From positions 1-64,000 of the IMG/VR virus record IMGVR_UViG_3300028384_001500: a stretch of DNA of 64,000 bases. The stretch is one strand, 5' to 3'. Source of the DNA: a virus. The translations under genes and the position numbers were made by a program. Below the pieces are notes generated by a model. The model ran no database searches. It was not told where the DNA came from and worked only from the letters and a program-made list of their open reading frames with translations. This document shows positions 7,856 through 55,054 of the stretch, piece by piece. Every line of letters starts with the position of its first letter. Position 1 is the first letter of the stretch.

Positions 7856-8102
7856 TGTTGTCTCCTTTTTTATTATTATACTGTAATACTTCGTAGATTA
7901 CATAAAGGGACATCCATTTAATTTCACCAATGGCATTTTGTATTTTCATTGTTTTGTCGTCAATGTAAAGGACAATTCCAATAAAATTTTGATTATCAAC
8001 GTTAACTTTAATTAGGTCACCTGGGCACACATTTGCCTTTTCCAAAGTGTCGCGCCTTCTTATATTAACCAAATCATCCAATGTTAACCTGTTAAACCCC
8101 AA
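7800..8102 (-). CDS. Small SH3-barrel-like protein with a disordered Lys/Asn-rich tail
   Basis: 100 residues. Residues ~25-70 (VCPGDLIKVNVD, FIGIVLYIDD, KTMKIQNAIGEIKWM) follow the barrel pattern seen in several genes of this window. The last ~25 residues (NNKKGDNIGKEKDK, then Lys-rich) are low-complexity and overlap the start of the next gene by 56 bases in a different frame, so the tail may be a by-product of overlap. A promoter lies inside its coding sequence. Confidence 0.6.
   Translation of the reverse strand: MGFNRLTLDDLVNIRRRDTLEKANVCPGDLIKVNVDNQNFIGIVLYIDDKTMKIQNAIGEIKWMSLYVIYEVLQYNNKKGDNIGKEKDKQSSGNKKKKQD
7875..7902 (-). promoter_or_regulatory. Phage promoter, TGTAAT-N16-TATAAT class
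   Basis: TGTAAT (7897-7902) and TATAAT (7875-7880) on the minus strand with a 16-base spacer. It lies within the coding region of the upstream small gene and fires at about 7868, just 13 bases before the ATG at 7855; ligase follows in the same direction. Confidence 0.65.
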
Positions 8103-8109
8103 TTTTACC

Positions 8110-8697
8110 TCATGGTTTCAAAGCCTTCCTTATATCTTCAACTGAAAATCCTTTTCTTCCAGTGTTCATTTTTTGTTTTATAGTTTGTCTAATCATACCG
8201 ATAGTTTTGTCTTTTAATGTTGTATCTAATTTGACTATAGCTTCTCCAGCTTTTCTAACATCTGGATTATCACTTAAAGCAGCCAAACCGCCAATAGTTG
8301 CAAAATTTAATTTTGTTTTATTAGATCTAGGTTCACCATCAACTTTGTATTTAACTTTATCATCTGTGTCTAAGTAAAACTGGACTTCAGGTTTTTCGCC
8401 ATCCAGTTCAATTTCAAACTTTGCTTTTTCCCATTCAATGGAAGGTTCAGGTTCTTCAACCGGTTCTTCATCAGCAGGTTCTTCTTCGTTGTCACTACTT
8501 TCTGGGTTTGGATCAAAAGCTTCATCTCCAGAATCATCTGTTTCGGAAGAAGCACCTTCACCTTCTTCATCAAACATTTCATCGCCTGTACTGTCAGTTC
8601 CTTCTGCTGAGTCGTCTCCTTCTTCATCAAGCACTTCATCCTGTTCTAGTAGATAATTTTCAATAAGCTTTTTAAGTCGACTTTTAGAAATACGCAT
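8110..8697 (-). CDS. Tagged acidic protein (candidate packaged protein)
   Basis: 195 residues. Begins MRISKSRLKKLIENYLLEQ, a variant of the basic helix shared by about twenty proteins here, with possible (L/I)xE cleavage points at LIE and LLE. Residues ~17-80 are extremely acidic (repeats of DEEGD, SDNEEEP, EEPVEEPEP). The C-terminal half looks folded (FEIELDGEKPEVQFYLD, then helices). Acidic, disordered proteins with such a leader recall phage head-core or internal proteins. GAGGA precedes the ATG. Function inferred only from the tag. Confidence 0.65.
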   Translation of the reverse strand: MRISKSRLKKLIENYLLEQDEVLDEEGDDSAEGTDSTGDEMFDEEGEGASSETDDSGDEAFDPNPESSDNEEEPADEEPVEEPEPSIEWEKAKFEIELDGEKPEVQFYLDTDDKVKYKVDGEPRSNKTKLNFATIGGLAALSDNPDVRKAGEAIVKLDTTLKDKTIGMIRQTIKQKMNTGRKGFSVEDIRKALKP

Positions 8698-8734
8698 TGC
8701 AATCCTCGCTATTAATAACTATTATTTAAAAAAG

Positions 8735-8757
8735 AAAAAAGCACCGAAGTGCCTTTA
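8735..8757 (-). terminator. Intrinsic terminator with UUCG loop
   Basis: On the minus strand an 8-bp stem AAAGGCAC/GTGCTTTT is capped by TTCG and runs into a T-rich tract. It lies just after the bS21 gene stop, so it ends that transcript before the acidic tagged gene. Confidence 0.75.
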
Positions 8758-8758
8758 T

Positions 8759-8959
8759 TTAATTTCTTCTTCGCCTATTCTCCATTTTTCTTCGACGTTT
8801 CGCAGCTCTTTCTTTTTTCTTTTTCTTTTTAACCGAAGGCTTTTCATAATACATACACTCTTTTGCACGCCTTATTATACCTTCATTATCAACTAGTCTC
8901 TTAAATCTTCTAAGCGCTTTTTCAACCGTTTCGTTTTTTCTAATTCTAATTTTTGCCAT
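8759..8959 (-). CDS. rpsU: Ribosomal protein bS21
   Basis: 66 residues. Matches bacterial S21 along its length: KNETVEKALRRFKRLV, then CMYYEKPSVKKKKKKERAAKR and an Arg-rich tail. S21 sits near the anti-Shine-Dalgarno of the 30S subunit and helps initiation. Phage-encoded bS21 is known in large phages and is thought to swap into host ribosomes to favour phage messages. It has its own terminator and lies next to a lipoprotein gene. Confidence 0.92.
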   Translation of the reverse strand: MAKIRIRKNETVEKALRRFKRLVDNEGIIRRAKECMYYEKPSVKKKKKKERAAKRRRKMENRRRRN

Positions 8960-8966
8960 GTTTCCT

Positions 8967-9893
8967 CTATTGAATGTATCCTGTACCTATTACTTCCCAC
9001 CAACTGTAACTCTCGATTGTTCCTCCAAAATCTTCATACTCTTGCTTTTTTATTTTGTGCCGCATGAGATGAATTGATGTAAGGCTTCCGTTCTGATACT
9101 GTTGAAAATATGAACCCGGGATTGTCATGTATCCCACATCCTCTGATTTACAAATAACTGTTCCATAATAAGAACTACCATCATAACTATACACAGAAAT
9201 ATGAATTGTGAAAAAACTGTTAACGTCTCCACTAGGTCCCCACGTAAAAACATTATTTCCGTTTCGATTGATTGGGGCTTGAAAAGCATAGCTAGGGTCA
9301 ACATAAAGCATTTGGTATGGTTCTATATAGTCAAACCCACGCAATGTCTCCACAACCTGGTCTGCCGTCTTTCCGGCTGCATTTAAAGTATGTTGTGTAT
9401 TTCTTCTAAAATTAGCTTCTTGTATAAAGCTATTTTGATAAATAACACCGGTATTGTCTGATGTTTTATTTAGCTGGATATTGTCTCCAAAAGTATTTAA
9501 CAAAGAAACAGACTGTCCTAAATCTACATTTGGAGAACTTACTCCTGATTCATAATAATCTCGGCAGCCATCTATAGTCGGGATCCAAGAAGTATGCTCA
9601 CCAGTTGTAGGTTCATGAAAACGTGCTTCTGCTATTGTATTTATTTCTTGTGAAAGACCCATGCAATATGGGCAAGAAGCCTGCATGAGGCCGAGTTCAA
9701 CGTAAGCAATAGTTTTACTTAAGTCTTGTTGACTAGTATTTGTGTCTTCATTGTCAACTGCTGTTTCTATCTCTTTTGTTGTGTCAGTCGTCAAACTAGT
9801 ATCATTTGCAGATTCTGTCTCAAAAGTTTTTGAAATATAGACATCATTTCCACAGCCTGCAAATATAGAAAAAATAAATAATAATGATTTCAT
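8967..9893 (-). CDS. Secreted lipoprotein of unknown function
   Basis: 308 residues. A short signal peptide MKSLLFIFSIFAGC ends in a lipobox, so Cys14 should be lipidated. A Thr/Asp-rich linker (TDTTKEIETAVDNEDTNTSQ) follows, then a CPYC-containing segment (QASCPYCMGL) and a Tyr/Ser-rich beta domain to the end. ATG at 9893 is preferred; an in-frame GTG lies 6 bases earlier. A consensus-type TTAACA-N17-TATAAT promoter precedes it. Could be a moron that alters the infected cell surface. No family recognised. Confidence 0.7.
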   Translation of the reverse strand: MKSLLFIFSIFAGCGNDVYISKTFETESANDTSLTTDTTKEIETAVDNEDTNTSQQDLSKTIAYVELGLMQASCPYCMGLSQEINTIAEARFHEPTTGEHTSWIPTIDGCRDYYESGVSSPNVDLGQSVSLLNTFGDNIQLNKTSDNTGVIYQNSFIQEANFRRNTQHTLNAAGKTADQVVETLRGFDYIEPYQMLYVDPSYAFQAPINRNGNNVFTWGPSGDVNSFFTIHISVYSYDGSSYYGTVICKSEDVGYMTIPGSYFQQYQNGSLTSIHLMRHKIKKQEYEDFGGTIESYSWWEVIGTGYIQ

Positions 9894-26414: not shown

Positions 26415-28709
26415 TTAAATATTATGCAATACATCGTTATCTAAAGACCAAATACCTTCGCTAATTCTTGCCTTAATTTCATCAGCAATTTTTGTCTTAA
26501 TATCGTCAGGTACCGGTCGTGTAATTGTTTCTACAGATCCGTCAGCTCGATATCTTTTTATTTCTTGGGTTTTAAGTTCCATACTATTATACTTATCTAG
26601 TAAAAATTGATCATCACATTTTACTTTATTATATATGAATATATCGTGATATTCAAGAAAATGTTTCTTGAAATGCTGTATGGCTCTTTCAGAAATGTAG
26701 TTACTAGCTGCGATATAAGAGAGTAAACGTGCAAGAGGATTATCACCAGCAGAATTCGCATCATATTGTGCAAACTCCCCTGTTAGTAGAGGTTCAATAT
26801 AAATATCGATATCAGCTTGATGAGCATACTTAGATATCTTTTCTCTACCTTTAAGTCCTCCTTCGGGTTCGATAAATCTATAAAACTCTGATAAACTCAT
26901 TTGAAAAAACTCAGGAAAGTGTTCATCAATTGCATTTTCTAATTCTTGAATCATGACTGGCGTCTCTTGCCTTGTCATTCTATAGTAAACATTATGAGAA
27001 GGCAGCATTGATAATACTCTGATCATAAGTCCGGTAGCCAACCCATCTTCGTCAGTCATGCGAGGTAATGTTCTTCTCTTACCATCTGGCCCTCTAACAG
27101 GCAAAAAACCAAAGTCTACTAATCGACGCATAATTTTTAAAAAATAATTAAATCTATGTTCTATAACTTCTGTAAAAAATTTGCTTTTAAGTTCTTCATT
27201 TTGAGAACTGGTATATACACTTTCTACAGTTCTTAATCCTCTATAGTCACTATCATATTTTGATGATTTAGAGTTATCTATAATATTCTGCACTCCTTTT
27301 TCACTTAAGACGTCTGATTCGTATTTGTTAATCTCACTCGCAAAGTTAGGGTGTGGCGGAAAAATTAGATGCTGAACTTCCATAACTTCATCAACTAGTT
27401 CTTCAAAATAGTAATCAATATCATCCTCAGAAACGTTAGTTTTGCCTAATGTAAGTTGTGTATGAAGTACTAAATACTTTTGAAAAAAATCACCTGCTAA
27501 AAGGTGGCTTTGACGAATTAAAATAAAATTAACGATATCTTTTATTGCCCTTTTTGAGTTACTTTTAAAAGCATAGCTTTTATTTTCCTTAAATGCGTCA
27601 ATGGGGTTTGAAGAACTCGTAATTAGCCTATAAACTCTTTCAACAGTATCAAGAGTTATACCTGAATTCTCACCTTTAGGTTTTTTAATGCTATGCAGTA
27701 AAAAGATCGGATCATAAAAAAATATGAATTCAAAAACTTCTTGAGACTTTTCATAGCTTGATGCAGAAATCTGTTCAATGTAATCTCTTTTTTCGTCTTC
27801 ACCGTAATCCTTGATTACACTTTTTAAGTATAGTATATCTTGGCATGCTCTTTTAAATGACTCTTTTGCTGGGTGGTTACTACCTATTACTTGAGCTTCG
27901 GCTTTAAGTATCCCCATTATCTTGTCGTAATATTGGCCCAGGCCTGCCTCAGATCTTAAGTGGTGATCTTTTATTCCTTTGTTCGCCGCATCTACTGATA
28001 AACTACCATCTTGACCGGTAAGAGTAGGCGAACCATGAACAAATCCAATTGAAATACGTGAGTCGTTATTATCCATAAATGGTTCTTTTTGCACTTTAAA
28101 AGGATCGTCAGGAGTACGACTATAGTCCATAACATAAAAAAGAATAATGTCTTCTTTTTCTCTACCCACATAAGAAAGAAAAAGATTTTGACCTTTTGTT
28201 TTAGTTGTACACCAAGACGTGTCTTTACCACTAATATCGCATGCTGTAGATCCTTTGACAGTCTTTGGTAATAAAATAGTCCATGGGCCTACTTGATCGA
28301 TCTTTTCTACCTGATTCGGATCATCAATCGTTTTAACTGTTGGTTCTGGTTTGCTTTTCCTGCTATCAATTAAAGCGTCAACTTGCGATAACACCCTACG
28401 CAAATCATTAACCGTTTTATAATTTTTTTTAGATAAGTTAGTAGGATATCCGTTTTCTCTCACAATTGCTTGTACTTGAGGCTCAAAAAATCTAATGACG
28501 TCGGGGACAACGTCTTGGATAGGCTCTGTACCACGTGTTTTCTGAATCCAAGATAGTTTGTCAATCACAGTTAGCCCTTTATTATATGCATCGAGAAGAG
28601 GCGTTTGATCAGGTTTCGGCTGAGTTTTGATCCATTCTCTTGTTTTTCTACTCTCAAGCAGCAGGCTTTCTAATAAAATTTTTCTTAGTCTTCTTTTTGT
28701 TATTTTCAT
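26415..28709 (-). CDS. Large tagged paralogue A (WCTTK family)
   Basis: 764 residues. Tag MKITKRRLRKILLESLLLES (LLE sites), then TREWIKTQPKPDQ. A conserved block contains VGPWTILLPKT, DTSWCTTKT, ILFYVMDYSRTPDDP, NNDSRISIGF and LSVDAAN at about 150-260. The block is repeated in the next two upstream genes. The C-terminal ~480 residues are helical and diverged. The WCT block recalls a motif I have seen in other phage proteins but I cannot name the activity. One of three tandem copies, each 760-830 residues. Confidence 0.7.
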   Translation of the reverse strand: MKITKRRLRKILLESLLLESRKTREWIKTQPKPDQTPLLDAYNKGLTVIDKLSWIQKTRGTEPIQDVVPDVIRFFEPQVQAIVRENGYPTNLSKKNYKTVNDLRRVLSQVDALIDSRKSKPEPTVKTIDDPNQVEKIDQVGPWTILLPKTVKGSTACDISGKDTSWCTTKTKGQNLFLSYVGREKEDIILFYVMDYSRTPDDPFKVQKEPFMDNNDSRISIGFVHGSPTLTGQDGSLSVDAANKGIKDHHLRSEAGLGQYYDKIMGILKAEAQVIGSNHPAKESFKRACQDILYLKSVIKDYGEDEKRDYIEQISASSYEKSQEVFEFIFFYDPIFLLHSIKKPKGENSGITLDTVERVYRLITSSSNPIDAFKENKSYAFKSNSKRAIKDIVNFILIRQSHLLAGDFFQKYLVLHTQLTLGKTNVSEDDIDYYFEELVDEVMEVQHLIFPPHPNFASEINKYESDVLSEKGVQNIIDNSKSSKYDSDYRGLRTVESVYTSSQNEELKSKFFTEVIEHRFNYFLKIMRRLVDFGFLPVRGPDGKRRTLPRMTDEDGLATGLMIRVLSMLPSHNVYYRMTRQETPVMIQELENAIDEHFPEFFQMSLSEFYRFIEPEGGLKGREKISKYAHQADIDIYIEPLLTGEFAQYDANSAGDNPLARLLSYIAASNYISERAIQHFKKHFLEYHDIFIYNKVKCDDQFLLDKYNSMELKTQEIKRYRADGSVETITRPVPDDIKTKIADEIKARISEGIWSLDNDVLHNI

Positions 28710-31000
28710 TAGTATCCGTCCATTTCAATATTAAGCTCTTCCAATATTTCTGTTCCTAGTGTCCAAGTGCTAGGATAAGCATAGAATGCTCTGTCTTCTA
28801 TCTCTGCATACACAAGATCTCCAAAATAGGTTTTGTCTTCGATTGTTCTTGTATACTGTGTGTCTGGTAGTTGTGGACCTTCTGACGCTGAATAGTACCT
28901 TAATACTCTATAAAGGTCAACTAGATATTGATCGCTTGAATACTTAGGATTTCTTAAAAAACCGTCAAAGTCAACACACATATTGTTTTTTATATAGTTT
29001 GCCATTTTTTCTGAAATAAAAGGACTGCCTATTAAAAATCTTATTAATTCATCAAAAAATGTTATTTCTCTAGAGGGAGTCCAACGATTTTGGCCAAACC
29101 CAGTAAGCCAACCCAAGTCTGAATCTTTAACATATGTGCTAATCATTAAACTGTTTATTCCTCTATTTCCTCCCTTAATAAAACTTTTAAATTGACTAGG
29201 CTTCATTTGATAAAATTCAGGAAATATCGATACAAAATAGTTTTCAACATCCTGGATTAACTTTTGCTGCATTCCTCTAGCATTTTCAATAAAGGCTCCT
29301 CTTCCACCAACCAATTCTTGCCGCACGATAGTTATCGCAATTCCGTCTTTTTGGTCTAACAAAGGAATATCCAACCCTTCAAATCCACCATATTCGGTAA
29401 ATTTACTGCGACCTTTATCTATTAGATATCGAAAAGATTTTAAGACATGTTCATATCTGGTAGAGACTCCTGACTCATAAAATTTTTCTTTTATATTATC
29501 TGAAGCTATATTGTAAATCCCTCTAATTTGATTTTGCTTACCTTGATCGATAAAATCTTGTATACCTTCATCTGATAATTGGTAAGTATGTCTTTCATGT
29601 ATTTTTTGAGCAATCTTAGGGTGGTATTGAAAACCTCTATGGTGTCCGTAAGATAATATATTTTCAACTAGATCATTCATTCTAACTGATGGGTCAATAA
29701 CTGTTCCTCGACTCATTTGACCTGTGCTAATTAATTTCTCATCAAGTAACTCGTTGTATAGATCAAAGAACTTATCAAACATGACGTCACTCATAAGGTA
29801 GCTTTTAAAAGTCAACACGTCAAAAATAAGCATGTCACTAGAATATCTTGAGCCACCTTGATATTGTGCAAATATTTTGCCCAAAGCAAGTCTTTTTGTT
29901 GAGAATTCATTATATATTTTTTCTAAGGTATCTTTCGAAAAATTCACAGTTTGGTAGCCTTCGCCTCTAGCTCTAATTACATCATAAAAAGTATCTGGTG
30001 TAGAAAACAAAATAAATTCCACAACTTCTGGGGATGCCTCATTTAAATTTGCTGCCACCTGATTAAGGTAGTCATTCTTTGCATCCTTATCATAGTCTTT
30101 GATTATATTTTTTAAATACAGTAAGTCTTTTCTAGCTCGTTTAATAGACTCTTTAGCAGGGTGATTTGAGCCAATAGTCGTAGCTTCAGCTGTTAAAATT
30201 GACATAATTTGATCGTAATACTGTCCTAGGCCATTATTTGAGCTAAGTATTCTTTTGTTTAGACCCATGTTTGCTGCATCAACTGACAAACCCCCACTTT
30301 GACCGTCAAGTACAGGGCTGCCATTCATAAACCCAATGCACATTCGACTGTCATTGTTTGCCATGCAAGCTTCTTTTCTGACTTTGTGAGGATCATCTGG
30401 GGTGCGACTGTAATCCATGATATAGAAAAGAATAATATCAGCATTTTCTCTGCCTACATAAGAGAGAAATAGATTTTGCCCACGAGATTTTGTTGTGCAC
30501 CAAGTTGTATCTTTTCCACTAATATCACAAGACACAGAACCAGTTACAGTTCTGGGCATTAAGATTGTCCATGGGCCTACTTCGGCTATCTTGTCAACAT
30601 GGCTAGGATCATCAATAGGATTTGTTTGTTGCGTTGATGTAGCTGCTTTTCTGCTATCAATAAGCGTATCTACTTGTCTAATTACTCTACGCAATTCTCC
30701 CACAGTTGGGTAAGTTCTTCTATTTAAGTTAGTCTGATATCCGTTTTCTTTTACAATTGCCTGTACTTGCGGCTCAAAAAATCTAACGACGTCTGGTACT
30801 ACATCTTGGATAGGCTCTGTGCCTCTGACCTTTTGAATCCAAGATAATTTATCAACAACTGTTAGCCCTTTATTGTAACCGTCAAGTAGTGCTTCTTGAT
30901 CGGGTTTAGGCTGAGTCTTGATCCATTCTCTTGTTTTTCTACTCTCAAGCAATAAACTTTCCCATAAAATTTTTCTAAGTCTTTTCTTTGTAATCTTCAT
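28709..31000 (-). CDS. Large tagged paralogue B (WCTTK family)
   Basis: 763 residues, nearly colinear with paralogue A: tag MKITKKRLRKILWESLLLES, then TREWIKTQPKPDQ, VGPWTILMPRT, DTTWCTTKS, ILFYIMDYSRTPDDP, NNDSRMCIGF and LSVDAANMGLN. Identity is highest over the first 300 residues and drops after, so the N-terminal half is under stronger constraint. Overlaps paralogue A by 1 base. Recent tandem duplication is likely. Confidence 0.7.
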   Translation of the reverse strand: MKITKKRLRKILWESLLLESRKTREWIKTQPKPDQEALLDGYNKGLTVVDKLSWIQKVRGTEPIQDVVPDVVRFFEPQVQAIVKENGYQTNLNRRTYPTVGELRRVIRQVDTLIDSRKAATSTQQTNPIDDPSHVDKIAEVGPWTILMPRTVTGSVSCDISGKDTTWCTTKSRGQNLFLSYVGRENADIILFYIMDYSRTPDDPHKVRKEACMANNDSRMCIGFMNGSPVLDGQSGGLSVDAANMGLNKRILSSNNGLGQYYDQIMSILTAEATTIGSNHPAKESIKRARKDLLYLKNIIKDYDKDAKNDYLNQVAANLNEASPEVVEFILFSTPDTFYDVIRARGEGYQTVNFSKDTLEKIYNEFSTKRLALGKIFAQYQGGSRYSSDMLIFDVLTFKSYLMSDVMFDKFFDLYNELLDEKLISTGQMSRGTVIDPSVRMNDLVENILSYGHHRGFQYHPKIAQKIHERHTYQLSDEGIQDFIDQGKQNQIRGIYNIASDNIKEKFYESGVSTRYEHVLKSFRYLIDKGRSKFTEYGGFEGLDIPLLDQKDGIAITIVRQELVGGRGAFIENARGMQQKLIQDVENYFVSIFPEFYQMKPSQFKSFIKGGNRGINSLMISTYVKDSDLGWLTGFGQNRWTPSREITFFDELIRFLIGSPFISEKMANYIKNNMCVDFDGFLRNPKYSSDQYLVDLYRVLRYYSASEGPQLPDTQYTRTIEDKTYFGDLVYAEIEDRAFYAYPSTWTLGTEILEELNIEMDGY

Positions 31001-36660: not shown

Positions 36661-36680
36661 CCACTAAGTTTCCAAAAAAG

Positions 36681-37040
36681 TGGACCGCAGCAGAATCGAA
36701 CTGCTGTCCGCAATAGTCTTGGTTCTAGTCATTCACAAGCTTAGTTATCTTTTTTCTCCTGATAACAGGGATAGTCACCTCTTTCCACCAACTCTAGGTA
36801 ACATTGAGTTCCCACCTCATACTACGAGGATAACCATTTTAGTCATGATATATCGCCTCGACTAACTGGCTAACCTCTTGTTTTTCACCGGAAGAGATAC
36901 CGGCGTTGATTAAGCAGCTAAAGCTACTGACTCAAAGTGTGCGTTATTGTTTGCAACTAAATTGTTTGAACTGTTAAGGTCGAGTCTCACCTGCTTGCAC
37001 TGTCTCCTTGATTCTATTCCGTCGAAGCCATTAGCGGCCC
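36681..37040 (-). ncRNA. ssrA: tmRNA
   Basis: About 360 bases. The 5' end GGGCCGCTAATGGCTTCGACGG has the conserved TTCGACGG; the 3' end GACAGCAGTTCGATTCTGCTG with GCGGTCC forms the T arm and pairs with GGGCCGC as a 7-bp acceptor stem (one G-U). The tag frame begins at a GCA resume codon (36952-36954) after TTTAGTT and reads ANNNAHFESVALAA then TAA (36910-36912), ending in the ALAA degron. tmRNA with SmpB rescues stalled ribosomes and tags the peptide. Promoter at 37051-37078 starts 4 bases before the 5' end. Confidence 0.92.
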
Positions 37041-40181: not shown

Positions 40182-41129
40182 TTATTTGACAATGTCTGCA
40201 CTAGCTAAATGACCGTTAACAACAATTAATTTACCTTTTATGTAGTTATCAAACCATTTTGCAACTTCTGATACTTTTTGCTTTAAATTCTTAAGATACT
40301 CAACTTCATAGTCAGTTAACCCAGCAATATTAAGTCTTAATCCATTTTTTGTTAAAAGTTCTTGACAAACCATTTCTGCTAGATCATCATTTAAAAAATA
40401 ATTTCTATATTGCTCTTGTTGATGAGGTACTGGACCTTTTCTTTGGGTTATTGCGCTTTTCATCGTAAGAATGTCGATTACTCGCTTACTAAAACCCGGG
40501 CTAGTATTTTGTAAATTTCCTATATCATGACCTAGCTTTGTAAGCTTATTTCTCATTAATTCACTATCAAAAATAGCATGCATTATCATCCAAGGCGTCA
40601 TTTGAAACTTGTGATTTCCAATATTAATAAAGTCTGTTTGATAATAAATAATGCAATCGTTGTCCTCTATTGTCGATAAATCAATATCAGGTTTGACTTT
40701 TTTAAGAAAGTTTTTTGCACTTTGATTTAAAGGCGATATTTTTAATCGACTGTCAAAGTTACCTCTTTGCCTACCAACAAACTTATTAAACTGACTTTTT
40801 GAGATTGTCCCGTTTTTAAAACAAAATGATCCAATCTGAGCAAGAACGCATACTTTTGCGTTCATGTACCCGAATCTTTTTTCTGCTTCTTTGTTAAATG
40901 AACTGCCTTTCGCGTAAACTGACGCTGCTTTTTTTTGTTTGTTCATTCTTTTAATTGCACCTGGATCAAATACCGGCCTTTCGTAGTCACCTAGAAATTC
41001 ATAATTGTCTGTTGCAGCTATCTTATTAAAAGAAGAAAATTGATCATCAGCAGAATCGACAGTCCCTAGATTTTTTTTAAACGCCATTTCTCTTATTATT
41101 TGTCGTAGCTGTCTTCTAGTTATTTTCAT
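40182..41129 (-). CDS. Tagged protein of unknown function
   Basis: 315 residues. Tag MKITRRQLRQIIREMAFKKN with IRE. Lys-rich with several aromatic-rich strands (CIIYYQTDFINIGNHKFQMT) and a helical C-terminus (EYLKNLKQKVSEVAKWFDNY). No motif recognised. Overlaps the upstream gene by 4 bases. Confidence 0.6.
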   Translation of the reverse strand: MKITRRQLRQIIREMAFKKNLGTVDSADDQFSSFNKIAATDNYEFLGDYERPVFDPGAIKRMNKQKKAASVYAKGSSFNKEAEKRFGYMNAKVCVLAQIGSFCFKNGTISKSQFNKFVGRQRGNFDSRLKISPLNQSAKNFLKKVKPDIDLSTIEDNDCIIYYQTDFINIGNHKFQMTPWMIMHAIFDSELMRNKLTKLGHDIGNLQNTSPGFSKRVIDILTMKSAITQRKGPVPHQQEQYRNYFLNDDLAEMVCQELLTKNGLRLNIAGLTDYEVEYLKNLKQKVSEVAKWFDNYIKGKLIVVNGHLASADIVK

Positions 41130-41704: not shown

Positions 41705-42472
41705 TTATCTTGCACAAAAATAAAATGTTGCAAATCCTTCGTAGTAATCATAAATAAACAGTCTACCATCAACGTTGATAGAGACAAATTTATTATCTAG
41801 CTCTTTCGGGTAATGATCAGATGTAGGAAAAGAAACATTTTTATTACTAAAAAAGTAGTCATGAAGTGCTGTAAAGAGTGGATTAAAATCATCATCCCAC
41901 ACTTCTGTTAGTGAGTCTATCACACCCATATCTTCTATTTCACACCCTAAAAATTCTGAGTATACACGAAATTCGTCACCCATACCATCATAATCATTAT
42001 TTTCTAGTGTCATTTCTGGCATCTCGCCTACAATAGAAAATACATCACCATATGTGTTTCTTAAAAAGTTACAATACGTCTTATTTTTTGACAGCTTAAC
42101 AAACTGTTCTGGATCGATATCATTAAATTCTGGTACCAAACTATCTTGGGCTTTTGATCTTATGCCTAGTGAGTCAACAGCAGTCTCCTCAGCAGGTGTC
42201 AAAGGGTTATCGTAATCAAGGTCTGGGTGCCTAACGGCTAACTCACGCCCCATCTTTCTATACGAAGCATTATTAGGTCCGTATGTGTCTACTCCACTTG
42301 AGCCTTTCATTAAAGATGATAATTTTGGGTCCAATCCTGCAATTTGATCGTCTTTTTTGCGACCTAATTCATATGCGACATCAGAAGGAGTAGCTACTCC
42401 TTCTGGGTCAACTATGTAAGTGCGTGCTGCTTCTATTATTAGTTGCCTTAATTGTCTTCTTGTTATTTTCAT
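41705..42472 (-). CDS. Tagged protein of unknown function
   Basis: 255 residues. Tag MKITRRQLRQLIIEAARTYI with IIE before Ala, the closest match here to the T4 form FIAEA. Acidic body (NPLTPAEETAVDSL, FIYDYYEGFATFYFCAR at the end). Overlaps the response regulator gene by 4 bases, linking the tagged run to the signalling block. Confidence 0.6.
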   Translation of the reverse strand: MKITRRQLRQLIIEAARTYIVDPEGVATPSDVAYELGRKKDDQIAGLDPKLSSLMKGSSGVDTYGPNNASYRKMGRELAVRHPDLDYDNPLTPAEETAVDSLGIRSKAQDSLVPEFNDIDPEQFVKLSKNKTYCNFLRNTYGDVFSIVGEMPEMTLENNDYDGMGDEFRVYSEFLGCEIEDMGVIDSLTEVWDDDFNPLFTALHDYFFSNKNVSFPTSDHYPKELDNKFVSINVDGRLFIYDYYEGFATFYFCAR

Positions 42473-42900
42473 TTATACACCTTAAACGGGTTTGTTCTAT
42501 TAACGTATCCGTCATAGTCTTTTTTAAACTCTTCTAAGCGAGGTTCAATATCATCAGACTTAACTATCCAAAATTGAGCCCCGGCTGAGATAGCTTTTCC
42601 CATTTCTTCTTTGTCAGCTGAGGAAGATATGATACCAATGACCACGCCGTTACCATATTCAAAGTTAATTTTACGAATTAACTCAATTCCGTTAAATGAC
42701 GATCCAATAATGTTAAGATCAACAAACACACAGTCTGGTTTTTGATCTTTTTTACCTTGCCATGCATCAAAAAGTTTAGCGGCCTCATCAGCAGAGTCTA
42801 TAGACTCTAAGTTGAGTGTTATATCTAATAAACTACATGCATCTTCAAAAACGAGATGAAATAAGTTTTCATCATCTACCAATAATATTGAATTAATCAT
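42469..42900 (-). CDS. Response regulator receiver protein
   Basis: 143 residues, a single receiver domain. ILLVDDENLF gives the acidic pair (9-10), VFVDLNI the phosphorylated Asp61, IISSSAD the conserved Ser, and WIVKSDD the Lys114. No output domain, so it acts by binding partners like CheY or Spo0F. It overlaps the upstream kinase gene by 4 bases (ATGA), so the pair is co-translated. Phage-encoded two-component proteins are rare. Confidence 0.88.
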   Translation of the reverse strand: MINSILLVDDENLFHLVFEDACSLLDITLNLESIDSADEAAKLFDAWQGKKDQKPDCVFVDLNIIGSSFNGIELIRKINFEYGNGVVIGIISSSADKEEMGKAISAGAQFWIVKSDDIEPRLEEFKKDYDGYVNRTNPFKVYK

Positions 42901-43787
42901 TCGAACTCCACCTTAATCATTGTACCTGTCTCTAATTGTTCAGAAGATACTTTAAACCCATGTTCATTAAGTATGGCGACACAAATGTTTAATCCTAATC
43001 CTGACCCACTTTCTGACTGATTTTTTCTTCTTGTGTAGGGTTGACGTAACCTATCAAAATCTTTTTGGCTCATACCGCGACCATTATCAATCACAGCAAG
43101 CGTTTTACTATTTATCATTTCTATCTTTACCCATTTTGTATCACTATCATTGTACTTTAATCCATTTCTTATCAAGTTGTCAATCGCAGTACAAAACAAA
43201 GACTCGTTAACACGCATAGTCGGTAAGTCTTCTGAGACCAAAACCTGGTCTGCATAATTTGTTCTTTTTAAATATTTTTCTAATGCTTCGCCAATATCAA
43301 TCATGTCTAAGCAAAGTGTGCTGTCTTCTCTAACAAGATTGGTAAATTCATACACACCTCTATAAACATGTTGAGAGTGTGCTAAACCTTCCTTTAAAAG
43401 CCGAAGCGGTGATTCAAGCTTAAGGTCTTTGATAATTTCAGGCTTAAGCCTTCGTTCTAATGATCTTACACCTCTAGGAATGTAAGTATTTAAACCGCTG
43501 TGCATATCATGTCTAAGTATTTTAGCTGCATGCTCAAGATATGTATTTTTTTCCAAGACAGAATCTAACAACTCACGTTCTGTGCTTTTTACCATAGTTA
43601 AGAATTCAAGAACAAATGTGCTAAAAGGTAAAGCAAAGACAATTACACATGCATAACCAAAAAGTGCTGTGTAATAAGTTGACTTAATTAATTTAAAAAC
43701 AATTAAACTTTGAACAACAAAAAATGACAACATAATTGTTAAAGCTAGAGAAAGACAAATCTTTGATCGCTTGCTTATTTTATCCAT
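42897..43787 (-). CDS. Membrane-bound sensor histidine kinase
   Basis: 296 residues from MDKISKRSK; this ATG overlaps the previous gene by 8 bases. An ATG at 43838 adds 17 residues but overlaps by 59. Two membrane segments (LALTIMLSFFVVQSLIVF and ALFGYACVIVFALPFSTFVL) precede the dimerisation helix with RHDMHSGLNTYIPRG (His ~93), then N box NLIRNGLKYND, G1 VIDNGRGM and G2 GSGLGLNI. No large periplasmic loop, so it likely senses the membrane or a partner. Homologous to the kinase at 44004 in its catalytic half. Confidence 0.85.
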   Translation of the reverse strand: MDKISKRSKICLSLALTIMLSFFVVQSLIVFKLIKSTYYTALFGYACVIVFALPFSTFVLEFLTMVKSTERELLDSVLEKNTYLEHAAKILRHDMHSGLNTYIPRGVRSLERRLKPEIIKDLKLESPLRLLKEGLAHSQHVYRGVYEFTNLVREDSTLCLDMIDIGEALEKYLKRTNYADQVLVSEDLPTMRVNESLFCTAIDNLIRNGLKYNDSDTKWVKIEMINSKTLAVIDNGRGMSQKDFDRLRQPYTRRKNQSESGSGLGLNICVAILNEHGFKVSSEQLETGTMIKVEFE

Positions 43788-44007
43788 CGGTATGTAAAGC
43801 AATATGGATTTTTCTATCGATTTCTTTAATTTTTTCATTATTTTCTTCCGTAGGGTTTAAGGCATATTTTAATTTTAATTCTTCTCTCTTTTTGTAGAGC
43901 CCGGTTATGTATTTGTCAGCGAACAAATTCTTCTTATTGCAAATAAATACAAACATTGCTGAGCTCAAAGCTAGCGAAATTAAAAATACAGCTGTCATAT
44001 CAATCAT
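43780..44007 (-). CDS. Small one-pass membrane protein between two histidine kinases
   Basis: 75 residues. N-terminal membrane segment (MTAVFLISLALSSAMFVFIC), then a charged helix (YKKREELKLKYALN). Overlaps both kinase genes (4 and 8 bases). Its setting suggests an accessory of the signalling block, such as a sensor cofactor; family unknown. Confidence 0.6.
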   Translation of the reverse strand: MIDMTAVFLISLALSSAMFVFICNKKNLFADKYITGLYKKREELKLKYALNPTEENNEKIKEIDRKIHIALHTDG

Positions 44008-45002
44008 AGCAATTTTACTCCTATAACTGTTCCTGTGTCTACTTTCTCGACGTTAACAGTAAACCCATGTTCTTTTAAAATAGCGTTTGCAATATTAAGA
44101 CCTAACCCAGATATGTCATCGTTTTTAACTTCTCGCATATAAGGCATGCAATATAGATCATACTCATACTGTGTCATTCCAACGCCGTTATCTTCTATTA
44201 CTAGCTCATTATTATATCTCATATAAATTTTTACTTTTTTATCTTTGCTGTCGTTGTAAGTTATTCCGTTTCTTATAAAATTGTCCAATGCAATACAAAA
44301 CAGCGTAGGGTTGATTTCTGAGACGACTAGATCACTTAATTCTACTTTATTAGAGTACGATGTACCTTCTAAAAAACCCATCAATATCTTTTTTAAATTA
44401 TGCTTTTCTACTTTAAACTCAGGTTTTCTTTTAACAAGATTAGTAAATTCATACACGCCTCTATAAACGTTCTGTGTGTGTTTTAAACCCTCCTTTAATA
44501 GTTTTATACTTAAACCTAAACGATGTTCCTTGATTGCTTCCTCAGGCAGCTTATCTAATAAAAGCTTAAGGCCTCTTGGAATATAAGTGTTAATGCCGCT
44601 ATGCATATCATGTCTAATAATTTTTGCTGTATGCTCAAGATATATGCTTTTTTGTTGTAGCAAATGTTTGTCTTTTATTTGATCTGTTAACTCTGTTCTT
44701 AAGTTAAAATATTCTTTAAGCCAATCGTCATAAGTTTTATTGTCACCTGGCATAAACATTCCTGTCTGATAATGGGTCGGTACTTTAACGCCGTCCTCAA
44801 GAGTAATAAAAATAGATGTAAGTTTAATATCAACAATTCTAATTTTGCTAAACTTATTTTCTAATTCAGACTCGATACATAGTGTGTCTTCACTAGCACA
44901 GACAAAAACTGGGCATGTTTTAAGTTGTGCATATGATTCTTGATCGTAATAGTTTCTAGGTTCCCATTTGAGTGAAAACCACTCTCCTTTTTGTGCGCGC
45001 AT
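44004..45002 (-). CDS. Soluble sensor histidine kinase
   Basis: 332 residues, no membrane segment. A ~100-residue N-terminal domain (MRAQKGEWFSLKWEPR, ESELENKFSKIRIVDIKLTS) may be a sensor. The kinase core has RHDMHSGINTYIPRG (His131), N box NFIRNGITYND, VIEDNGVGM and SGLGLNIANAIL. The core is clearly paralogous to the kinase at 42897. AAGGGG lies 5 bases before the ATG. The H box is unlike the usual HELRTPL form and both copies share it. Confidence 0.85.
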   Translation of the reverse strand: MRAQKGEWFSLKWEPRNYYDQESYAQLKTCPVFVCASEDTLCIESELENKFSKIRIVDIKLTSIFITLEDGVKVPTHYQTGMFMPGDNKTYDDWLKEYFNLRTELTDQIKDKHLLQQKSIYLEHTAKIIRHDMHSGINTYIPRGLKLLLDKLPEEAIKEHRLGLSIKLLKEGLKHTQNVYRGVYEFTNLVKRKPEFKVEKHNLKKILMGFLEGTSYSNKVELSDLVVSEINPTLFCIALDNFIRNGITYNDSKDKKVKIYMRYNNELVIEDNGVGMTQYEYDLYCMPYMREVKNDDISGLGLNIANAILKEHGFTVNVEKVDTGTVIGVKLL

Positions 45003-45021: not shown

Positions 45022-45396
45022 CTAATTATAATAAACCTGCACAAAAAGAATTGATATTGCTAAAAATACGCATATCATTGTTTTAGGAGTGAACATTGAT
45101 TCACCTAAGAAATGCCAAGTCATTATCGGAAAAACTGTGTAGGAAAAAACTGCAGCAATAAAACGAACTGACCATAACTCTTCTCCTGTTGCGATAAAAC
45201 AAAATTTAGTACCATACCAGAACGCCAACCCCGCAGGTGTTCCAAAAAGAAGAGTTGCCAAAATGGGTTTATCTTTCCAGTAGTCCCAAACAAATTGTGA
45301 ATTACCGGCAAACCAACCCATAATATGACCTAAGACCAGAAACCCAATCCCAATTAACATTTCTCTACTAAAAAATTCAATTATTTTTTCAATCAT
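45022..45396 (-). CDS. Small four-segment membrane protein
   Basis: 124 residues with about four membrane segments (MLIGIGFLVLGHIMGWFAG, LATLLFGTPAGLAFWYGTK, FIAAVFSYTVFPIMTWHFLG, MICVFLAISILFVQVYY). It resembles a family of small membrane proteins I have seen in many tailed phages, of the DMT/SMR look. Role unknown. Divergent from the plus-strand tail gene. Confidence 0.65.
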   Translation of the reverse strand: MIEKIIEFFSREMLIGIGFLVLGHIMGWFAGNSQFVWDYWKDKPILATLLFGTPAGLAFWYGTKFCFIATGEELWSVRFIAAVFSYTVFPIMTWHFLGESMFTPKTMICVFLAISILFVQVYYN

Positions 45397-51415: not shown

Positions 51416-51705
51416 CCTCCAATACCGTTGTCTAGTTCATCCATAAAATCTCGAATTGTTTCTTGGAATTCTGGATTAATAGCTATTTTCTTTAGTTTTT
51501 TATCATCCATAGCCACATCATAAAGTTCAGTAACTTCAGAAGCAATCTTCATTAAAGCTTTTACGTATACGTTTCTAGCTGTTGAATGATTCATTTTAAA
51601 GCCTTGCTCATTAAGCTCATCAGCAATCTGATGATATGTTTTTCCGTCAAACTTTTTAGATGTACCGTAACCATTTTCTGATTTAAATCCTTTAGGCATT
51701 GCCAT
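51412..51705 (-). CDS. Separate sigma region-4.2-like helix-turn-helix protein
   Basis: 97 residues. KTYHQIADELNEQGFKMNHS and then STARNVYVKALMKIA align with the -35-reading helix-turn-helix of sigma-70 region 4.2 (for example LREIGEEFGVSRERVRQIEA then KALRKL), with a small insert. The sigma factor encoded just upstream lacks exactly this part. AAGGAG inside the end of that gene lies 6 bases before this ATG and the frames overlap by 14 bases. It most likely works together with that sigma factor as a split sigma. Confidence 0.6.
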   Translation of the reverse strand: MAMPKGFKSENGYGTSKKFDGKTYHQIADELNEQGFKMNHSTARNVYVKALMKIASEVTELYDVAMDDKKLKKIAINPEFQETIRDFMDELDNGIGG

Positions 51706-52462
51706 TGTTTACTCCTTCATTGTTTTCGTTGATATTATATATATTTTTGTCGTCTTGTAATACTTCGTCTAAACCAAATCTTAGCCTTAAGACTAGTTCT
51801 TCTCTCTTTGATAGTGAGCCTAGTGCTTTGATTATCTTTGCTCTAATAATTTTGTTGTCAAGAATTTGTTCTATATTTGTCGATCCATTATCAGGAATAA
51901 TGTCTCCTAAAGTTCTTGCACCTTCTTCACCTACTTGCTGATCAATACTGGCAATATTTTTACTTCTAATTGAAGCCATGGCTAGACGTACATGTTTTTC
52001 AGTAATATCTAATGCATCACAGATTTCTTCAATAGTAGGTTCTGCACCAAACTCTTCTATATAATCTTGCTTAAGCTGCCAAATTTTTCTAGCATTTGCA
52101 AGAGTGTGAGAAGGAACTTTTAGTAGTGTGCTATTTGAAGTAAGGCTACGTGTCACAGCTTGTTTAATCCACCATGATGCATATGTAGAAAACTTAAACC
52201 CTTTACGCCAATCAAATTTTTCAACAGCTTTAATTAAGCCAATATTTGACTCTTGAATAAGATCTTCCAGCGTGTGACCGTACCTAGCATACTTTTTAGC
52301 AATTGATATTGCTAGTCTAAGATTAGACTCGATCATTTTGTCTCTTGCTCTACGATCGCCTCTTTCGATTCTTTTGGCCAACTCAACTTCTTCCTCACGC
52401 GTTAGAAGTCTTGTTTTGTTTTTAATATCTCGAAAGTATGTTTCGAGGACTGTGCTTTCCAT
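51692..52462 (-). CDS. RpoD/RpoH-family sigma factor truncated within region 4
   Basis: 256 residues. Region 1.2 (YFRDIKNKTRLLTREEEVEL), region 2 (NLRLAISIAKKYARYGHTLE, LIQESNIGLIKAVEKFDWRK, GFKFSTYASWWIKQAVTR) and region 3 (VPSHTLANARKIWQLK, TIEEICDALDI) are intact, so core binding and -10 melting are expected. Region 4 stops after SLSKREELVLRLRFGLDE, and a low-complexity Asn-rich tail follows, so the -35 reader is missing. That reader is in the next gene. A promoter of the TGTAAC-N16-TATAAT type precedes it, suggesting autoregulation. Confidence 0.9.
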   Translation of the reverse strand: MESTVLETYFRDIKNKTRLLTREEEVELAKRIERGDRRARDKMIESNLRLAISIAKKYARYGHTLEDLIQESNIGLIKAVEKFDWRKGFKFSTYASWWIKQAVTRSLTSNSTLLKVPSHTLANARKIWQLKQDYIEEFGAEPTIEEICDALDITEKHVRLAMASIRSKNIASIDQQVGEEGARTLGDIIPDNGSTNIEQILDNKIIRAKIIKALGSLSKREELVLRLRFGLDEVLQDDKNIYNINENNEGVNNGNA

Positions 52463-52507
52463 TTAATCTCCAATTTTTAATTTTTAATGTTTAGTAGTTA
52501 TGTGTTT

Positions 52508-52535
52508 ATTATACAACAAAAATGTGTGCGTTACA
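52508..52535 (-). promoter_or_regulatory. Phage promoter for the sigma factor, TGTAAC-N16-TATAAT
   Basis: TGTAAC (52530-52535) and TATAAT (52508-52513) on the minus strand, 16 bases apart, then AAACACATAAC as at 4407. Start expected ~52501, 39 bases before the sigma ATG. Confidence 0.7.
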
Positions 52536-52577
52536 CTTTTTATGTAAAACGCACACAAAATAATTTAGCTATTAAAA

Positions 52578-52991
52578 TTAGTTAATAGTAATTTTTTTAG
52601 CTGCCGGTTTTTTACTTTCATATGTAGGTACAAGAATAGAAAGCACGCCTGATGTATAATCAGCATCGACGTTATCAATATCGACATTTTTAGGCAAAGA
52701 AAAAGATCGTTTAAATTTTGTTGTCTGAATATGCTCTTGATGAATATATTCTTTTCCTTCAAAATCTAACGTACCTTTAACTGTTAAAATATTATTTTCG
52801 ATGTTAATATCGAAGTTGTCACGTGAAAAGCCGGGTAAAAATAAATCAAAGACGTAAGAATTGTCTTGTTTGTAAATATTACATTTTGTATTGAAACTGT
52901 TAGCATGCGACTGCTTACCGCGGCTTTTTCCAATTCCAAAGTAATCATCATTAAAAAAATCATTTAAATAAGAATTATAAATTAGACTCAT
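52578..52991 (-). CDS. Hsp20-family small heat-shock protein
   Basis: 137 residues. Alpha-crystallin domain at ~37-125, from YKQDNSYVFDLFLPGFSRDN to SGVLSILVPTYES, the latter being the conserved GVLxIxVP strand. The C-terminal IxI-type end is AAKKITIN. Small Hsps hold unfolded proteins. AAAGGAG lies before the ATG. Together with GroEL nearby it forms a folding block. A weak promoter of the window's class precedes it. Confidence 0.88.
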   Translation of the reverse strand: MSLIYNSYLNDFFNDDYFGIGKSRGKQSHANSFNTKCNIYKQDNSYVFDLFLPGFSRDNFDINIENNILTVKGTLDFEGKEYIHQEHIQTTKFKRSFSLPKNVDIDNVDADYTSGVLSILVPTYESKKPAAKKITIN

Positions 52992-53040
52992 TAGCGCTCC
53001 TTTGTTAAATTGCTATTAATCACCTTGTAGTGATTATTAA

Positions 53041-53068
53041 TAATATAAACACCAATTCTTAGATGTAC
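53041..53068 (-). promoter_or_regulatory. Possible promoter, TGTACA-N16-TATATT
   Basis: TGTACA (53063-53068) and TATATT (53041-53046) on the minus strand with the 16-base spacing; start ~53034, 43 bases before the Hsp20 ATG. Both boxes deviate slightly. Confidence 0.45.
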
Positions 53069-53077
53069 ATAATTTTT

Positions 53078-53407
53078 TTAAAAAATTAATTTTTTTCCTT
53101 TCATTAGAATTTTTCTCTTATTGAATGTAACAACCGCGACTGTTTTAACACCTGGTAATCGCTTAACCAAATTAGACATGTCCTTAAGACTTTTATATAT
53201 TTCATCAGACTCTGGTAAATACTTAATGCTTAATAGTAGAGAACCATCACCGTCAGAAAATCGTGCAACTTTATCTTTTTGTCCAACAACTGCAATTCCT
53301 GGAAGTATTCGTATTCTTGTCATTAAGTCTGGAACGTGCGTTTCATTTTCAATTTTAAGATTAACAACGGCAGTTACTAATTTTCTTTGTAATTTATACT
53401 CTTGCAT
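53078..53407 (-). CDS. Small alpha/beta protein of unknown function
   Basis: 109 residues. Two similar halves: KLVTAVVNLKIENETHVPDL, MTRIRILPGIAVVGQ and LLSIKYLPES, NLVKRLPGVKTVAVVTFN, suggesting a ferredoxin-like beta-alpha-beta repeat. CAGGAG precedes the ATG. It lies between Hsp20 and GroEL. Co-chaperonin is unlikely from sequence (no GroES mobile loop). Function unknown. Confidence 0.6.
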   Translation of the reverse strand: MQEYKLQRKLVTAVVNLKIENETHVPDLMTRIRILPGIAVVGQKDKVARFSDGDGSLLLSIKYLPESDEIYKSLKDMSNLVKRLPGVKTVAVVTFNKRKILMKGKKLIF

Positions 53408-53443
53408 ATATTCTCCTGTGGAATTTGCATTTTTATATAATTA

Positions 53444-55054
53444 TTACTCAGAATCGCTTTTAACTTCAATAAGAGAACAATCAGCAGATAAAAGCATAGT
53501 TGCAGCAGACACAGCATTTTCTAATGCACAACGGGATACTTTGGCGGGATCGATTACACCTAACTCAAACATGTCTCCAAAAACCTTGTTGCGAACGTCA
53601 TACCCAACGTTAGAGACACCTTTTGACTCTTTCTGTATGTTTGTTAAGATATTGTGATGGGATAATCCAGCGTTGCTTAGAATTTGTCTAAATGGCTCTT
53701 TGCATGCACTTATAAGCAAGTCTTTTCCAGCTGCAATATTTTTATCAATATCGCCGTGATCTAATTTACTTCCAAAAGATGATGCTGCCTGATACAAAGC
53801 CATCCCACCACCGGGTAGAACACCTTCTTCTAGGGCAGCGCGAGTTGCATGCAAAGCATCATCAACACGATCATAACGCTCAATAAGTTCAGATTCAGTT
53901 GCAGCACCAACTCTAAGGATCGCTATGCCTCCCGATAATTGCTGGAGCCTATACTTTAAAAGCAATTTTTCTTCATTGCTAAGACCCGGATACTTGAGAC
54001 TGTCTTTAATTGCTAGCATTCTTTCTTTTGAATTATCTAGTTTTGCATTTTCATCTTTGATGACAAGTGTTTTTGACTTTTGAATAATTATCTTTTTGCA
54101 AGTACCGAACATTTCCATTTCAAACGAAGTCATGTCAAATCCACCGTCGACAACACGCCCACCTACTATTGATTGTAGATCTAATAATAGATCATGTCTA
54201 GCACCGCCAAATCCAGGCGATTTAATAGCTGCGATTTGCAAAGATCCTTTAACTCTATTTAAAACCATTCCTTGCATTGCATCACCTTCAATTTCATTTG
54301 CAATAACAACAATTGGGCGACCGGTATCTAAGGCTAATTCTAAAGGCTTCATTAACTCTCTAATTGAATTAAACGTTCTATCTGCCATTAACAGTAACGG
54401 ATTTTTAAATTCTGCAACCATTTTATTTTTATCTGTAACAAAATACGGTGATAAAAACCCTCGTTCCATTTGAAATCCGTCGACAACAGTTAAAGAGCTA
54501 TTAAATCCTTTTGCTTCTTCAACTAGAACATGGCCATCAGGCCCAGCAGCTTCAATTGCCTTTACAATTAATTTAGCAATTTCTGTTTCGCCATTTGCTG
54601 ATATTGTTGCAACTTTTAAAAGATCATCAGTACCAGCGACCTCAACTGCACAGCTTTTGATATTGTCTGTTATTTCTTTTTTTATAAGATCAATTCCTAG
54701 CTTAAGCTGGTCAATATCAAATCCCGCAGTTTTATATCTTAAGCCTTCATTATAAATAAACTGAGCTAAAACTGTCGCTGTGGTCGTACCATCACCTGCT
54801 TCTTCAGCTGTTCTACTTGCAGACTCTTTAAGAATTTGCACACCTAGGTTTTCAACTTCATCAACTAGATTAATTGATTGTGCAACTGTTACACCGTCTT
54901 TTGTTACGAGCGGATGTTGCCCGGGTCTATGTATAAGAACTAATTTACCTTTCGGGCCCATAGTTACCTTAACTGTATTAGCTAGTTTATCGATACCTCT
55001 TTTAATTTTTATATCTAAATCTTGACCAGAATAAATCTCTCTTTTAATTTCCAT
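53444..55054 (-). CDS. groEL: Chaperonin GroEL
   Basis: 536 residues. KGKLVLIHRP, TKDGVTVAQS with the catalytic Asp53 and DGTTTATVLA at 88-97 form the ATP site; EEGVLPGGGMALYQAA and GGIAILRVGAATESE mark the equatorial and intermediate domains. The Gly-Gly-Met tail is absent and it ends EVKSDSE. It folds proteins in a closed ring. No GroES gene is visible here, as in phages EL/OBP whose chaperonins can work alone. Diverged but complete. Confidence 0.95.
   Translation of the reverse strand: MEIKREIYSGQDLDIKIKRGIDKLANTVKVTMGPKGKLVLIHRPGQHPLVTKDGVTVAQSINLVDEVENLGVQILKESASRTAEEAGDGTTTATVLAQFIYNEGLRYKTAGFDIDQLKLGIDLIKKEITDNIKSCAVEVAGTDDLLKVATISANGETEIAKLIVKAIEAAGPDGHVLVEEAKGFNSSLTVVDGFQMERGFLSPYFVTDKNKMVAEFKNPLLLMADRTFNSIRELMKPLELALDTGRPIVVIANEIEGDAMQGMVLNRVKGSLQIAAIKSPGFGGARHDLLLDLQSIVGGRVVDGGFDMTSFEMEMFGTCKKIIIQKSKTLVIKDENAKLDNSKERMLAIKDSLKYPGLSNEEKLLLKYRLQQLSGGIAILRVGAATESELIERYDRVDDALHATRAALEEGVLPGGGMALYQAASSFGSKLDHGDIDKNIAAGKDLLISACKEPFRQILSNAGLSHHNILTNIQKESKGVSNVGYDVRNKVFGDMFELGVIDPAKVSRCALENAVSAATMLLSADCSLIEVKSDSE

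Follow-up and report, generated by a model that had tools for sequence, protein, structure and literature searches.

What would a phage do with two histidine kinases and a receiver that carries no output of its own? The question is raised by a locus in IMG/VR virus record IMGVR_UViG_3300028384_001500, of which we analysed bases 1-64000 (the window). The whole record is 236,652 bases long. Its products include a major capsid protein (PF07068, 6.7e-66) and a prohead protease (PF03420, 2.7e-28), both of the T4 type, and the phage is therefore placed in the T4 superfamily. An earlier note had described a block of four genes at 42469-45002 as a phosphorelay that senses host state and perhaps feeds adjacent genes whose products share an N-terminal tag. 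We consider it likely that the locus encodes a phage-dedicated three-component signalling system with membrane output, in which the kinases (HKs and HKm) would transfer phosphate to the receiver (RR), RR would contact a 188-residue protein encoded downstream (C188) and C188 would act through a membrane hairpin.

Two kinases predicted to serve a single receiver

The four open reading frames (ORFs) of the earlier description are all present on the minus strand: HKs (44004-45002, 332 amino acids (aa)), a small ORF (43780-44007), HKm (42897-43838, 313 aa) and RR (42469-42900, 143 aa). HKs is a soluble histidine kinase with an N-terminal alpha/beta domain, dimerisation helices carrying His131 and an ATPase domain, assigned from HATPase_c (3.6e-10), its paralogue clade and an AlphaFold2 (AF2) model (predicted local distance difference test (pLDDT) 78) whose fold matches ZraS and HK853. 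HKm is a membrane kinase with two N-terminal transmembrane (TM) helices (HATPase_c, 4e-15), in which His110, the N box and the G1/G2 boxes are all intact. Both kinases have an H box, N box, G1 and G2; as the earlier note had recognised, they are homologous, being paralogues with 50% identity over 217 residues, and share the H-box motif RHDMHSGxNTYIPRG. This motif recurs in practically every one of the 144 distinct homologues that we examined and is therefore a lineage signature and not a chance resemblance. Across these kinases the core is near-invariant (YLEHAAKIxRHDMHSGINTYxPRG..., N box, DNGxG, GLGL), including the H-box region that docks receivers. The same motif surrounds the phospho-acceptor His in both window kinases, so we expect each of them to act on the one receiver that was found.

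That receiver (Response_reg, 2.3e-11) stands alone, as had been claimed: its pocket residues D9/D10 and D60, the Ser after beta4 and K114 are conserved in 105 distinct sequences, and Pfam detects the receiver domain only, with no DNA-binding output domain that would mark a transcription factor. The target should therefore be a protein. Family-model searches, on which all our genome-wide statements about the 236.7-kb record are based, found no other receiver and no HATPase genes besides HKs and HKm. The proposed phosphorelay is not supported by this gene content, since neither a second receiver nor a hybrid kinase was detected in the record (HPt domains were not searched for), and one-step transfer with two inputs is simpler. 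The sequences support a functional-looking two-component system in which two kinases are predicted to phosphorylate one stand-alone receiver.

The N-terminal sensors differ among relatives, which have two TM helices only, PAS, GAF, GAF-PAS, a small soluble domain or an uncharacterised N-terminus whose signal-peptide-like start and TM helices we read as periplasmic. Sensing of host state is plausible, but the sensors vary widely. In a tree of kinase cores, the soluble second kinases form one clade (5 rows, in 5 phages; support 100/94) and the periplasmic-sensor second kinases a separate one (12 rows; support 100/99), with a weak backbone that leaves a common origin of the two clades possible. 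This topology is consistent with several inputs into one receiver. A signal-peptide coiled-coil protein (YPIxTIxxGDSVVI), possibly a sensor accessory or a spanin, is encoded between two kinase genes in one relative (L046:3195-3791) and in 21 other loci.

The start of HKm is most likely the ATG at 43838 rather than that at 43787, given that a GGAAG ribosome site precedes the former and none precedes the latter, and that the nearest relatives (L001, L002, L085) share the resulting 26-28-residue N-terminal extension. The overlap between HKm and the small ORF would then be 59 nucleotides (nt), not 8; the 4-8 base overlaps described earlier hold, at 4 nt, for 44004-44007, 42897-42900 and 42469-42472.

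A membrane protein family linked to the receiver

The constant neighbour of RR is a gene that the earlier note had left outside its block. C188 (41126-41692, minus strand) is our proposed effector, on account of its linkage to RR and its AF2 model. We found the kinase family in 98 of 103 distinct receiver loci, and the C188 family likewise in 98 of 103. Of the 98 distinct receiver loci whose downstream flank is long enough, 96 have C188 after RR, with its start at most 30 nt away in 92; the two genes overlap by 4 nt in 39 loci and by 1 nt in 33 (72 together). The two apparent exceptions are L015, where the C188 frame was called too long to count, and the bacterial locus L163. A search anchored on C188, whose loci overlap in part with the receiver-anchored set, found RR upstream in 66/66 distinct loci. 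Kinases lie upstream in 89/90 loci, one in 63 and two in 26. One phage, L140, keeps RR and C188 (5001-6118); a search of its 241.9-kb record yielded no HATPase kinase, and RR-C188 therefore looks like an indivisible pair; two small membrane coiled-coil ORFs lie upstream of it there. Compared across loci, the conserved unit is one or two kinases, RR and C188, and the block, as delimited by this conservation, extends beyond 42469 to include C188. The kinases and receiver of the original four-gene block remain intact, with the 75-aa small ORF not conserved and a further membrane gene (M124) adjoining.

The AF2 model of C188 (pLDDT 83) comprises a small helical head (residues ~1-33), one helix (35-141) running into the first TM segment and a second helix (TM2, 147-182), that is, a cytoplasmic coiled coil leading into a two-helix membrane hairpin. 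Invariant positions occur in the head (G24, K28, Y40), where the coil begins (R52, R55, L56, Q63) and within the second TM segment (T164, N165, F167-I169, G171-I173, G175, K177). C188 had no significant match in Pfam, PHROG or NCBIfam, holin families included; a profile search against PDB sequences returned nothing significant, nor did a comparison of its fold with PDB structures, an outcome to be expected of a long helix. By these comparisons, C188 is a previously undescribed membrane protein family.

IMG/VR scans returned 476 kinase, 282 receiver and at least 517 C188 relatives, counted as contigs of which some are near-identical. The best 80 kinase relatives have roughly 52-69% identity over the best-matching segment, and the best 80 receiver relatives 76-92% identity to RR. 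The search for the same block in other phages that the earlier note had suggested thus recovered related blocks in hundreds of IMG/VR contigs. Its statement that phage two-component systems are rare is true of deposited phages, where tblastn against 50,697 records gave one weak kinase match and none for RR or C188, but not of uncultured viruses. A pattern scan of 84,980 bacterial and archaeal species genomes returned three close homologues, one on an uncultured-bacterium contig (L164) and two on contigs of Bacteroidetes metagenome-assembled genomes (MAGs; L162, and L163 on a 967-kb contig). The C188 head was found in 1/396 sampled Bacteroidota genomes and the receiver in 1/198, each being the seed genome itself. 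We rejected a common bacterial operon as the origin at these frequencies; kinase-RR-C188 is essentially a phage system. Features of L265:8128-9036, and signal peptides ending in ...SQ in the family, which by eye we take to resemble Bacteroidota export/sorting signals, suggest Bacteroidota hosts for part of the clade.

One of the bacterial homologues bears on the target of RR. The order in L162 is a PAS kinase, a receiver (72%) and a C188 head fused to HisKA and HATPase_c (8041-9090; head 41% identity over 90 residues, 5e-15), the fusion occupying the position after the receiver where C188 would be. Because the head sits on a membrane hairpin in phages and on a kinase in this bacterium, both beside the same receiver type, it looks like the receiver's target. 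On the simplest reading of these gene arrangements, the head and first coil would be what the receiver acts on, a candidate contact, and the attached part would be the output. We regard the fusion, from one genome, as a strong lead and not as proof.

Accessory genes and genomic surroundings

The minus-strand genes form a co-directional run in the order M124, HKs, the 75-aa ORF, HKm, RR, T255, C188 and T315. M124 (45022-45396) encodes a 124-aa multi-pass membrane protein, an accessory 19 nt upstream of HKs; it had no Pfam, PHROG or NCBIfam match, and homologues lie beside the block in ten relatives (L002, L003, L102, L143, L149, L151, L152, L255, L258, L261). The one-pass membrane ORF after HKs has a ribosome site and the 4-nt overlap with HKs and is an uncertain accessory. 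No homologue of it turned up in the other loci that were retrieved, and we rejected it as a core part because it is not conserved.

Few phages have genes between RR and C188. In the window phage this position holds T255 (41705-42472, minus strand; MKITRRQLRQLIIEA...), a tagged protein that we regard as variable cargo, and another tagged protein, T315 (40182-41129, minus strand), comes after C188. Relatives vary in which tagged genes occupy this position, with products of 187 aa in L002 and of 309 and 206 aa in L085; the junction is empty in L001, L003 and L014, and most loci have no tagged gene there. A TM protein of ~165 aa (HILTYHDSEPTE...LIWFIFAP) is inserted at the junction in L214, L222, L223, L228, L233, L236, L241 and L246, and is also present in L265 (4499-5008).

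In two viral records only, one of them a 297-kb contig (L265), a microbial rhodopsin gene (PF01036, 1.2e-13) lies between RR and C188 (L228:2393-2974, L265:5001-5582), overlapping the C188 gene by 4 nt within a tightly packed operon. The helix C RY-D-W-T pattern and the retinal lysine (DLTAK, K180) are both conserved in the protein. Among solved structures, those closest to it are the giant-virus rhodopsin OLPVRII and proteorhodopsins. We predict from this arrangement that the rhodopsin could be a light input to C188, or its light-driven partner, in these two phages; the window phage has no rhodopsin gene at this position.

At least 11 ORFs of the window (8110-58430, minus strand) share the N-terminal tag MKITRRQLRxLI.E, which we presume could be a capsid-targeting and cleavage signal, given the T4-type prohead protease of the phage. 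A pair of neighbouring tagged ORFs (764 and 763 aa; 26415-31000, minus strand) have N-termini that are nearly the same and are probably a tandem duplication. Also on the minus strand, the phage encodes a transfer-messenger RNA (36680-37040; tag ANNNAHFESVALAA) and, clustered at 51692-55054, a sigma-70-like factor, a small heat-shock-like protein and a GroEL-type chaperonin.

Proposed mechanism and alternatives

In the three-component system that we propose, one or two kinases with interchangeable sensors (here one soluble and one membrane-bound) would autophosphorylate and pass phosphate to the single stand-alone receiver. The phosphorylated receiver would contact the head or coiled coil of C188, which would be translated from the same run of genes, and the contact would shift the state of the two-helix membrane hairpin. 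Such a mechanism would explain both the head-to-kinase fusion and the hairpin form, since a receiver-responsive head would drive the coiled coil. As the endpoint we favour control of late events at the envelope, among which lysis timing is the leading candidate, and the phages probably read the infected cell's state and act on its membrane.

Several observations count against this interpretation. RR-C188 linkage can partly reflect common descent within one phage clade; the C188 model is a monomer built from 52 sequences, with a predicted template modelling score of 0.36, and can show no interface; and the head fusion comes from a single genome among the 396 Bacteroidota sampled. Transfer from the kinases to RR and contact between RR and C188 are themselves predictions. 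The endolysin of the window phage (Amidase_2 and PG_binding_1) lies at 101909-102571 of the record, ~59 kb from the block, and endolysins are similarly far away in L002, L014, L016 and L058.

Lysis timing is a more specific form of the same interpretation, and one that we rate as an appreciable possibility, somewhat short of an even chance. C188 would then act as a holin, an antiholin or a regulator of lysis whose cytoplasmic domain is under the control of the receiver: kinases would read the cell or environment, and the phosphorylated receiver would delay or trigger the membrane lesion, a signal-regulated counterpart of T4 lysis inhibition. The architecture of C188, in which an uninterrupted helix connects the TM hairpin with a cytoplasmic coiled coil, favours such a role, as does gene position in some relatives. 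Of the 18 distinct records (110-322 kb) that carry a GH19 endolysin (phrog_181, 2.7e-66), 15 have this gene no more than 7 kb from RR, against 1.8 expected under uniform placement, the nominal significance being overstated as these records are related. Both the strand of the endolysin gene and the side of the block on which it lies vary. The order in L255 and L258 is endolysin-like, Phage_holin_4-like, kinase, RR, C188 and M124, and L261 has the same order from the holin onwards (the endolysin and holin labels being family matches of homologues); the immediate neighbours of the block in L152, L255 and L258 include endolysin-like, holin and muramidase-like genes. A position beside the endolysin, which would be expected of a small membrane protein acting as a holin, is true of C188 in the GH19 lineage but false for the window, whose lineage has no such linkage. 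C188 also occurs in phages that have a Phage_holin_4-like gene and is therefore not required as the sole holin of those phages, and it matches no holin family. We rejected a universal lysis link in view of the distant endolysins; a broader membrane output is what we hold to be probable for the system.

C188 might instead remodel or guard the inner membrane when envelope or energy changes are sensed, with a part in shutting out secondary phages, in envelope stress or in ion homeostasis. Among the sensors, many are bound to the membrane or look periplasmic, and multi-pass membrane proteins (M124, the 165-aa TM family, rhodopsin) recur in the block, but no similar exclusion protein is known. PADLOC gave no match to a known defence or exclusion system, on which ground we rejected such a system as the identity of the block. 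Envelope or superinfection control of this kind seems to us rather unlikely.

Rewiring of host signalling, by pairing of the C188 coiled coil with host kinases or by draining of their phosphate through the receiver in the style of DivK-DivL, is more doubtful still. The classical kinase fused to the C188 head in L162 would fit it, as would L140 with its receiver and C188 and no kinase gene found, and stand-alone receivers that act on a kinase are known, DivK-DivL being an example (PMC5361649). Phage C188 has no kinase domain, however, and the phages nearly always bring their own kinase, with a lineage-specific docking region.

We give very little credence to the suggestion of the earlier note that the neighbouring tagged genes are what the receiver acts on. 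Such genes do lie beside or inside the block in the window phage, L002 and L085, but they were rejected as conserved targets because RR-C188 insertions vary in number and identity and most loci have none; the receiver, moreover, has no DNA-binding domain. That the block is a host two-component operon captured not long ago, without any role specific to the phage, is scarcely credible: all domains are bacterial in type and homologues occur in two Bacteroidetes MAG contigs, but hundreds of viral relatives stand against one receiver in 198 and one C188 head in 396 sampled bacterial genomes, and gene order and overlaps are fixed across divergent phages.

The programme of a lytic phage is commonly regarded as fixed, with a few points of decision. 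If the three-component reading is true, hundreds of uncultured jumbo phages would read the cell or its surroundings in real time and alter a membrane event, and sensor swaps, rhodopsin and inserted membrane genes would be suggested routes to new phage inputs. We tentatively suggest that a large clade of uncultured T4-superfamily jumbo phages may time lysis or another membrane event by a multi-input two-component system, in which swappable sensors, including a probable rhodopsin light sensor in some, would feed one receiver and a new effector class, C188. C188 would be a testable effector family with almost no known relatives outside the kinase-receiver-C188 system. Our search of the open-access literature (subscription papers lay outside it) found no description of the effector family, the three-gene unit or its spread in jumbo phages; the one receiver domain described in a jumbo-phage review (PMC7824862) is divergent and linked to NAD+ systems, not to histidine kinases.

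Comparison with known systems

Orthodox two-component systems (HK853-RR468, EnvZ-OmpR, CpxAR, ZraSR) have the same kinase core fold, N/G1/G2 boxes and receiver acid pocket, and the nearest solved relatives of the phage kinases in sequence and fold are HK853, QseC, EnvZ, CpxA and ZraS. Unlike in these systems, the H-box region of the phage kinases tested is unrecognised by Pfam HisKA, the receiver has no DNA-binding output and the system is almost confined to phages. RR resembles CheY and DivK in being a single-domain receiver with a full phospho-acceptor pocket and no output domain; DivL is kinase-like, and the receiver partner in L162 is likewise a kinase, whereas C188, the candidate partner in phages, combines a coiled coil with a membrane hairpin and belongs to no known family.

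The likeness to T4 lysis inhibition and Phage_holin_4 lies in a membrane-hairpin protein in T4-superfamily phages and in the position of the block beside endolysin or holin genes in one large lineage; C188 is not similar to a holin in sequence, and the window's own lineage lacks the linkage to lysis genes. To our knowledge, kinase-receiver control of lysis has no precedent. C188, with a C-terminal TM hairpin and no chemotaxis signalling tip, is unlike the sensory rhodopsin transducer Htr; the L228 and L265 operons resemble the sensory rhodopsin-Htr pair in placing a rhodopsin gene directly before the gene of a two-TM coiled-coil protein, C188, among kinase and receiver genes. The parts are recognisable as two-component signalling.

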